Below, one piece after another: positions 55,235-60,769 of a DNA stretch of 64,000 nt. A program made the position numbers and the translations under genes. The notes beneath the pieces were generated by a model, which saw only the letters and a program-made list of their open reading frames with translations, was not told the DNA's origin and ran no database searches. Origin of the DNA: Planctomycetota bacterium. Lineage in GTDB: Bacteria > Planctomycetota > Planctomycetia > Pirellulales > Lacipirellulaceae. Where the stretch lies: assembly GCA_013152205.1 (NCBI GenBank), contig JAADGV010000002.1, forward strand, positions 21,898 through 85,897, read 5' to 3'. Within the stretch, counting starts at the first letter, position 1; the number at the start of each line of letters is the position of its first letter.

Positions 55235-55267
55235 ATTTCGATTGTTTGAGCTTCGAGAAAGCTATTG

Positions 55268-55733
55268 GACAGGATAACAGGATAGATTGAATGTCTCTCA
55301 CGAGAATGTATCTAGAATGCAGTATCAAGAGTTAACTGAAAAGATTATCGGATGCGCCTACCGTGTCCACAATGCAATGGGATTCGGGTTCTTAGAGTCT
55401 GTCTACGAGAAATGTCTGTTGATTGAGCTGCGAAAGCTCGGGCTAGAGGCGGAATCTCAGAAACCCCTTACCGTTCACTACGAAAATAATGTGGTCGGAC
55501 AATTTGTCGCTGATGTGGTGGTTGAAGATGCGGTCATCGTGGAACTCAAATCGGTCCGACAAATTGCAATATCGCATGAGGTGCAACTGGTCAACTATCT
55601 GGTTGCCACGGGGAAGCCGGTAGGGTTGCTTTTGAATTTCGCCGAAAAGAAAGTGGAAGTAAAACGAAAAGTCAAAGATCTACACGACTGATTCACAGGA
55701 GGTCTCTCATCTGGCCCATCCTGTTATCCTGTC
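55268..55733. mobile_element. GxxExxY cassette bounded by inverted repeats (type B)
   Basis: GACAGGATAACAGGAT at 55268-55283 and its exact inverse at 55718-55733 enclose one GxxExxY gene. The arm is two eight-base ACAGGATA-like units. Unit length 466 bases. It sits between uppS and cdsA, which are commonly adjacent. No transposase other than the GxxExxY protein is inside. Confidence 0.65.
55317..55691 (+). CDS. GxxExxY protein
   Basis: 124 residues from the ATG at 55317; a TTG at 55287 would start inside the left inverted repeat. The name-giving motif is GFLESVY (G-x-x-E-x-x-Y) in MGFGFLESVYEKCLLIEL. VADVVVEDAVIVELKSVRQIAISHEVQLVNYL resembles the D-x(n)-E-x-K core of a PD-(D/E)XK nuclease-like fold: Asp in VADVVV, Glu-Leu-Lys in VELKS. 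The family has no established function. It is enclosed by perfect inverted repeats and is probably carried by them. Confidence 0.85.
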   Translation: MQYQELTEKIIGCAYRVHNAMGFGFLESVYEKCLLIELRKLGLEAESQKPLTVHYENNVVGQFVADVVVEDAVIVELKSVRQIAISHEVQLVNYLVATGKPVGLLLNFAEKKVEVKRKVKDLHD

Positions 55734-55817
55734 AAAACTAGATTGCTCGATGTCAATCAAAGTCTAATTTTCAATCCCACACGTCACTGAACCCGCATCT
55801 ACAGGAAAAATACATCT

Positions 55818-60237: not shown

Positions 60238-60301
60238 TGAAAACAGTCCGTCGCAAAAAAAGTAAAACGCTCCAGCCCTAGGAAATGCCATAGGATTGAA
60301 G

Positions 60302-60769
60302 AACCACAAAGAGCACTAAGGACACGAAGAAAGAAAAAATAAGTGTGAGAGAATTTGCACCGATTCCCGAACAGGACGAAGCGTTGGCGAAGAAGGTCAT
60401 CGGAGCGGCGATCGAAGTGCATCGAGAACTTGGACCGGGATTTTTAGAGAGCGTTTATCGCAAGGCAATGGCGTATGAACTCTCTTCTCAAAAAATTCAA
60501 GTCGAAGAAGAGAAAGCCATCGTCGTCCCCTACAAAGATATTCAGATCGCCGGTCAGCGGCTGGATCTACGAGTGGGTGGTCGAATCATCGTTGAACTAA
60601 AATGTGTCGAAGAGTTCGCGCCAATCCACCAAGCCCAACTGATTTCCTACTTGAAAGCCACCGGCTTACGCCTTGGCCTACTGATAAACTTTAAGATCCA
60701 AAAGGTGAAAGATGGAATTAAGCGCGTCGTCCTCTAAATATCTTCGTGTTCTTGGTGCCCTTTGTGGTT
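60302..60769. mobile_element. GxxExxY cassette bounded by inverted repeats (type A)
   Basis: The left arm 60302-60330 starts AACCACAAAGAGCACTAAGG and the right arm 60741-60769 is its inverted copy. 26 of 29 positions match. Each arm is three nine-base CAC-x-AAG units. Unit length 468 bases, nearly the same as the type B cassette. It separates pgpH from ybeY. Confidence 0.65.
60345..60737 (+). CDS. GxxExxY protein
   Basis: 130 residues with a GTG start at 60345. The motif GFLESVY lies in LGPGFLESVYRKAMAYEL. RLDLRVGGRIIVELKCVEEFAPIHQAQLISYL parallels the other GxxExxY gene (Asp in RLDLRV, Glu-Leu-Lys in VELKC), again like a PD-(D/E)XK core. Sequence is only partly like the first copy (about one third identical), so they are paralogues rather than a recent duplication. 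Function unknown. The start lies 14 bases after the left inverted repeat and the stop three bases before the right one. Confidence 0.85.
   Translation: MREFAPIPEQDEALAKKVIGAAIEVHRELGPGFLESVYRKAMAYELSSQKIQVEEEKAIVVPYKDIQIAGQRLDLRVGGRIIVELKCVEEFAPIHQAQLISYLKATGLRLGLLINFKIQKVKDGIKRVVL

Follow-up and report, generated by a model that had tools for sequence, protein, structure and literature searches.

Most of the GxxExxY genes compared in this study stand between inverted arms of short tandem iterons, and the type of arm follows the protein that the arms enclose. One letter of the iteron word and two residues of the protein change together across phyla, so the enzyme likely recognises its own arms; we infer, with good support from this covariation, that the GxxExxY protein recognises its own iterons as DNA. 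It seems to us reasonably probable that these genes form a REPIN/RAYT-like chromosomal system of nuclease plus repeat, in which the protein likely binds its own iterons and would thereby spread the arms in the manner of selfish DNA.

The window unit and its protein

The unit under study lies in the window, i.e., the whole stretch of 64,000 nucleotides of Planctomycetota DNA that was analysed, and its features, together with those of a second unit used for comparison, are as follows (window coordinates):

60302..60769, plus strand: whole unit of arm, GxxExxY gene and arm, 468 bp, from the inverted repeat search
60302..60330, plus strand: left arm, three CACNAAG iterons (60305-60311, 60314-60320 and 60323-60329; period 9, 9)
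60345..60737, plus strand: GxxExxY gene, 130 aa, predicted PD-(D/E)XK fold (TIGR04256, PF13366; AlphaFold2 pLDDT 93.7)
60387..60392, plus strand: codons for Ala15 and Lys16, the two residues that covary with iteron base 5 (an A in the window unit)
60447..60449, plus strand: codon of Glu35 in the GxxExxY motif, the same residue in all 46 sequences compared
60564..60638, plus strand: Asp74, Glu84-x-Lys86 and Gln98, which form the PD-(D/E)XK active-site signature and are shared by all or at least 90% of 46 sequences
60741..60769, minus strand: right arm, three CACNAAG iterons (minus-strand iterons 60742-60748, 60751-60757 and 60760-60766)
55242..55760, plus strand: the window's first GxxExxY unit, of 519 bp, with GACAGGAT/AACAGGAT words in its arms, for comparison

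The two arms of the unit at 60302..60769 are 29 nt each, are separated by 410 nt and are complementary at 26 of 29 positions (90%), the right arm being the mirror image of the three CACNAAG words of the left; the inverted repeat scored 43, whereas the best of 40 shuffles of that flank reached 28. A first-pass annotation had described a 468-base unit whose 29-base arms, with 26 matches, were built from nine-base CAC-x-AAG units, and the inverted-repeat search bore this out, each arm holding three CACNAAG words at a period of 9. Its statement that these repeats are the unit's own and differ from those of the other GxxExxY gene of the window is likewise correct, since the arms of that gene (55242-55283 and 55718-55760) carry words of the GACAGGAT/AACAGGAT kind, unlike those of the second unit. 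The position that it gave, between pgpH and ybeY, stands for ybeY (TIGR00043); in the other neighbour an HDIG domain alone was seen, and pgpH is used below as the name given by the annotation, the names ybeY, gatB and uppS having been checked. Directly upstream of the left arm, at 60273-60297, lies an imperfect palindrome, CAGCCCTAGG...CCATAGGATTG, and a string resembling it, CCCTAGGACTT, occurs near the locus L009.

The protein, whose open reading frame starts with GTG, is a member of the GxxExxY family (TIGR04256, 143.1 bits, the curated cut-off being 35, E = 4e-42; PF13366, E = 6e-41); domain searches with it returned these two families only, and no DDE or HUH transposase domain. It is predicted to be a PD-(D/E)XK nuclease: E35 and D74 are invariant and E84, K86 and Q98 at least 90% conserved among 46 sequences, and the E / D / ExK / Q set in an alpha-beta core that marks the superfamily is present in the residues, in the model and in the fold matches, comparison of the predicted model giving a nuclease-like fold. 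A search for sequence relatives in the PDB gave a single match, which is not credible (E = 0.48). The family is under purifying selection (dN/dS of 0.03-0.15 in the six unsaturated pairs out of ten). Two candidate roles were rejected, those of a defence gene (0 PADLOC families matched) and of a phage gene (no PHROGs match, and 0 of 50,697 phage records with the window protein as query); the same query matched 8 of 72,556 plasmid records, and a search of IMG/VR gave 5 distant loci. The open-access literature listed for GxxExxY, PDDEXK_3, PF13366 or TIGR04256 yielded no paper on the function of the family, one of the papers naming the domain in passing, and no title or abstract opening among those listed connected the family with repeats.

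Iteron arms and their correspondence with the protein

Loci were collected from the source genome and its relatives up to the order (118), from a GTDB species set (80) and from the remaining phylum (69), and arms were called by a fixed test, in which the best inverted repeat within 400 bases had to score more than 3 above the best of 40 shuffles. By this test, arms are present at 220 of 264 testable GxxExxY loci (106/117, 58/78 and 56/69 in the three sets), the other 44 being without callable arms, and three loci at contig edges were excluded (L095, L204 and L224). The same scoring at control placements called 0 of 116 random positions in pgpH-ybeY loci and 4 of 247 positions beside units. One locus of the second set, L199, duplicates L096 of the first; these arm counts include the two, and L199 was dropped from later ones. 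By record title, the hosts with arms include members of Planctomycetota, Chloroflexota, Bacteroidota, Acidobacteriota, Cyanobacteria, Verrucomicrobia, Spirochaetes and Proteobacteria, and one Thermoplasmata MAG. Within the phylum of the source genome, GxxExxY genes were found in 70 of 149 sampled genomes, and one congener (G013) is without them. Two GxxExxY proteins of a single genome (L128 and L130 in G006) are 96% alike and lie at different sites, neither with callable arms.

The arms share a common grammar. In the first two sets, arms are present at 164 of 195 testable loci, and in 157 of these four or more iterons allowed the unit to be typed; 114 of the 157 typed units hold six iterons, and 111 of the 114, with L199 left out, are arranged as three plus three. 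The general word C-R-C-N-R-A-G/T/A is found in most typed units (CACNGAG in 39, CGCNAAG in 26, CGCNGAG in 21, CACNAAG in 16 and CACNGAT in 14, plus others), repeated mainly at periods of 8, 9 or 10. Both arms have equal spacing in 102 of the 111 three-plus-three units, and in these 102 they agree at 96% of iteron positions, a figure that is partly a product of the typing itself, at 74% of N positions and at 65% of spacer positions. Arm mismatches that are G-U compatible show no excess in the same units (54 vs 74). Because the mismatches fall mainly at N and spacer positions and lack a G-U excess, each arm is probably read as DNA by the protein rather than through pairing of arm with arm, and an RNA stem was rejected as the main driver for want of a G-U bias. 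Folding gave 0 kcal/mol for each of the two arms of the window unit, which are not palindromes, and -0.3 and -3.8 kcal/mol (the latter for a CGC word) for two further arms, four having been folded altogether.

The first-pass annotation had proposed that arm type should correlate with the GxxExxY subfamily, and this holds by three measures. Across all three sets, 204 units were typed, and their protein and word distances are correlated (Mantel r of 0.40, at most 0.12 under permutation); in the 20 genomes with several typed units, the whole word is identical to that of the nearest protein of another genome in 51 of 86 units, versus a mean of 11% and a maximum of 31% when words are shuffled among the paralogues of a genome; and spacing tracks the protein beyond the word itself (concordance 0.63 vs 0.29 under a within-word shuffle, whose maximum was 0.44; n = 131). 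The whole word matches that of the nearest neighbour in 81 of 150 units, a set that omits 7 of the 157 typed units (L199, or protein not covered end to end), which indicates that words also drift. The idea of one gene per word per genome was set aside as weak: there were 8 same-word gene pairs within genomes against 14.6 expected (P = 0.035), and with spacing taken into account the deficit was not significant (P = 0.16).

The correspondence can be followed to single residues. Over the 150 units, the mutual information with iteron base 5 is 0.59 bit for residue 15 and 0.35 bit for residue 16, the next column having 0.18 bit. Thr15 goes with G (56/57), and Ala15 (32/33) and Cys15 (3/3) go with A; Ser15 is divided by residue 16, Glu, Gly and Ser at that position going with G (13/14) and other residues mostly with A (29/35). 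This rule was fixed in writing ahead of the analysis of 69 hold-out loci, of which 54 were typed; it was applicable to 52 units and correct in 47 (Fisher 2e-7), while a constant guess of G is correct in 41 of the 54, and the five misses include L290, a probable typing artefact (its word, CATGAAG, has no name in the typing code), and L297, which is ambiguous. Among 29 phylogenetically independent pairs that differ at base 5, column 15 reached a z of 8.5 and column 16 a z of 5.4, all others being at or below 3.3. The window protein, with Ala15-Lys16 and CACNAAG arms, obeys the rule; a counter-example is the gatB site of two congeners (L005 and L123), at which base 5 differs and residues 15 and 16 are Ser-Tyr in both. 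The covariation at base 5 and its success in the hold-out loci support the earlier proposal that the protein co-evolves with its own repeat. For base 2, which changed at least 42 times on the protein tree, no strong protein column emerged from 42 independent pairs (best z 3.4), and the contrasts at base 7 comprise only 4, 5 and 8 pairs and are confounded with deep clades.

Free arms, occupied sites and possible mechanism

The mechanism that we propose has four steps: (i) the protein would bind its iterons as double-stranded DNA, with residues 15 and 16 of helix 1 contacting base 5; (ii) it would nick or cut at the arms; (iii) arm pairs, whether gene-bearing or gene-less, would be copied into permissive intergenic sites; and (iv) the free arm pairs would then be the dispersed population of the gene-bearing unit. 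The reading of DNA is suggested by the covariation, the cutting by the conserved catalytic residues and the copying by the distribution of free arms; cutting and spreading by the GxxExxY protein are put forward here as what such a gene may do.

Arms were counted genome-wide for the words CACNAAG and CACNGAG, with strict three-word patterns, in 39 genomes. The source genome has 29 CACNAAG arms (including the two of the window unit) and 90 CACNGAG arms (including those of gene units); the reversed pattern, as a control, had no match in any of the 39 genomes, and with one mismatch allowed there were 33 three-word matches in the source genome versus 1 for the reversed pattern. No arm of either word was found in the 8 relatives without a GxxExxY match, among them the congener G013, whereas of the 31 genomes with such a match 12 have CACNAAG arms and 26 have CACNGAG arms (Fisher 0.04 and 2e-5 against the 8). 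The presence of a typed gene of a given word is associated with more arms of that word (P = 0.013 for CACNAAG and 0.003 for CACNGAG). Several genomes have arms of a word for which they lack a typed gene (CACNAAG in G010, 50 arms, and G023, 24; CACNGAG in G036, 71), and one genome with a CACNAAG gene (G009) has no strict-pattern arm. In G015, 11 of 20 arms have the (8,8) spacing of the gene, the prediction having been a shared spacing.

Counted from the lists under the strict patterns, the source genome holds 24 gene-less pairs of inward-facing arms (16 of CACNGAG and 8 of CACNAAG), the starts being at most 60 bases apart in 12 of the 16 CACNGAG pairs. Twenty free pairs, from G017 and G010, have conserved ends but share little sequence between them, which a simple copy mechanism leaves unexplained; these interiors are without trace of the GxxExxY gene, and the possibility that free arms are decayed GxxExxY genes was rejected.

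The same pairs bear on a reading of the arms as operators only, through which the GxxExxY protein would control its own gene, the free arms being relics or having spread otherwise. That the arms lie directly outside the open reading frame, that the evidence for recognition requires binding only and that arms exist without a matching typed gene would all suit an operator. We nevertheless hold this to be rather unlikely, as it does not readily account for (i) the likeness of the two arms, whose spacing is equal in 102 of 111 units; (ii) the conservation of an intact nuclease site; (iii) the 24 gene-less inward pairs; or (iv) the finding that the 8 relatives with no GxxExxY match have arms of neither word.

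As to the sites themselves, presence and absence of units at the same site was seen between congeners at pgpH-ybeY, gatB and uppS. In 30 pgpH-ybeY loci, obtained from 38 genomes with a match, the only GxxExxY gene is that of the window unit, and the pgpH stop and the HGxLHL motif of YbeY lie 907 bases apart in the source genome versus 324-755 in the 29 other loci of the bacterial family. The gaps between aligned flanks are in rough agreement with the length of the unit at gatB (L005, 578 vs 61 bp for a unit of 512) and at uppS (L006, 573 vs 32 for a unit of 519); exact empty-site joints could not be aligned at these two sites because the intergenic DNA of the congeners is too diverged. The gap before gatB (L005, L123/L359, L356-L358, L360) is a hot spot: arms of differing words are present in 5 of 6 genomes read, as GxxExxY units in the source genome and, with other letters, in G006, and as different arms in G008, G010 and G003, a single arm being among the occupants and G001 being listed without arms.

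Among close protein pairs, 6 of 11 align through their flanks (L002/L016, L003/L072, L103/L112, L027/L115, L005/L123 and L021/L078), which indicates that these six sites are old and vertically kept, and 5 of 11 do not; the gene-bearing unit thus appears often to be inherited vertically. This inheritance at orthologous sites, together with the purifying selection and the few plasmid and absent phage matches of the window protein, would also be in keeping with a site system adopted by the host, e.g., to repair DNA or organise the chromosome, a resident nuclease using the arms as its chromosomal sites. The patchy presence of the family (the 70 of 149 genomes of the phylum, with one congener lacking it) and the many different words per genome argue against such a role, and we regard it as unlikely.

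Concerning movement, the typed units of sets one and two were compared at offsets 0-19 and lengths 3-12 without any target-site duplication standing out, nor did a recent jump with exact ends come to light. A MITE of about 215 bp has GTAACCGTTCAC ends and CACNAAG arms inside (L046 1440-1665, L052 1440-1665, L041, L058 and L064); by eye, the copies L046 and L052 have 8-bp flanking duplications (AGGCTTGG and AAAACAGG), which are imperfect in others, and the GxxExxY unit of a congener (L026) is enclosed by GTAACCGTTCAC ends as in the MITE. The unit could on these grounds be the cargo of another transposon, whose unrelated transposase would read the outer ends and move it in trans, several gene-less CACNAAG pairs of the source genome lying in this same-ended MITE. 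We think this quite improbable, since the GTAACCGTTCAC ends occur as exact strings in only 1 of the 195 loci of the first two sets, no duplication is common to the units and the residue-to-base code would be left unexplained.

Comparison with known systems

The nuclease-plus-repeat reading invites comparison with REPIN-RAYT systems, in which REP repeats are associated with an HUH transposase, TnpA-REP, whose gene is flanked by its own inverted repeats (PMC2817692, PMC3116915, PMC8266576). As described there, both systems have a gene within its own inverted repeats, which coevolve with the protein, and many free copies, often as inward-facing doublets, and in both some orthologous genes stay in place. 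They differ in that (i) the GxxExxY protein belongs, by its residues and predicted fold, with the PD-(D/E)XK nucleases, whereas RAYT is an HUH (IS200/IS605-like) transposase; (ii) the window arms are three direct iterons that do not fold, whereas REPs are palindromes; and (iii) GxxExxY genes occur in many phyla, with several words per genome, the origin of RAYTs having been placed in gammaproteobacteria (PMC2817692). An enzyme that is not of the HUH type and window arms that are not palindromes point to a separate kind of system that would work like REPIN-RAYT.

Other systems share fewer features with the unit. Insertion sequences with MITEs likewise have inverted ends around a gene and gene-less pairs with similar ends, but the GxxExxY unit has no DDE or HUH domain and no shared target-site duplication, and its ends are iterons whose word differs between paralogues. 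Unlike Cas4 and lambda-exonuclease-like PD-(D/E)XK nucleases, the window protein is encoded beside an HDIG gene and ybeY rather than CRISPR or phage recombination genes, is only 130 aa long and has iteron arms of its own.

A closer structural parallel is found in genes of the S23/four-helix-bundle family (TIGR02436; L382-L410, L069 and L071), which have inverted arms of tandem iterons of about 7 nt at 22 of 30 loci, with words such as AGCNGTC, AGTAGGC, GGGGTGT, GAGTTGC and TGGACCG. Tandem heptamers upstream of an S23 gene are described for a published rRNA intervening sequence (PMC4990558); together with the arms seen here, they make S23 an apparent second protein family with the same architecture, in which short iterons in tandem form the inverted arms on either side of one small gene. 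The protein is unrelated to GxxExxY, the iterons are of about 7 nt with other letters, and the published S23 elements lie in rRNA. The least probable reading of the GxxExxY units, and a very improbable one, is an element that acts as RNA, as in the 23S rRNA intervening sequences, with arms that pair in the transcript into a processed hairpin. Transcription does yield complementary arms, and the architecture of S23 genes, known from such sequences (PMC4990558), is similar, but most mismatches fall at N and spacer positions with no G-U bias, single arms stand at the G001 and G003 sites, the window protein is not S23 and adjoins ybeY, and an Rfam search of the window gave nothing at gathering score.

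A wider reading, to which we give about an even chance, is that GxxExxY genes are a class of repeat-propagating nucleases with their own DNA address and a residue-to-base code, independent in origin of REPIN-RAYT, and that the structural parallel of S23 makes a gene between iteron arms a general kind of selfish DNA in bacteria that has been overlooked. The family gains a candidate target sequence, a partner population of repeats and a testable residue-to-base rule; if this holds, (i) a large class of intergenic repeats with CAC/CGC words would be explained, (ii) the REPIN-RAYT way of life would have a second type of enzyme and (iii) 130-aa nucleases would be available whose natural specificity variants could be read from their own arms. 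One relative of the source genome (G022) has 12 GxxExxY matches, those listed being partial, and 20 S23 matches, many of them partial, and looks as if a burst of GxxExxY and S23 units had decayed there.
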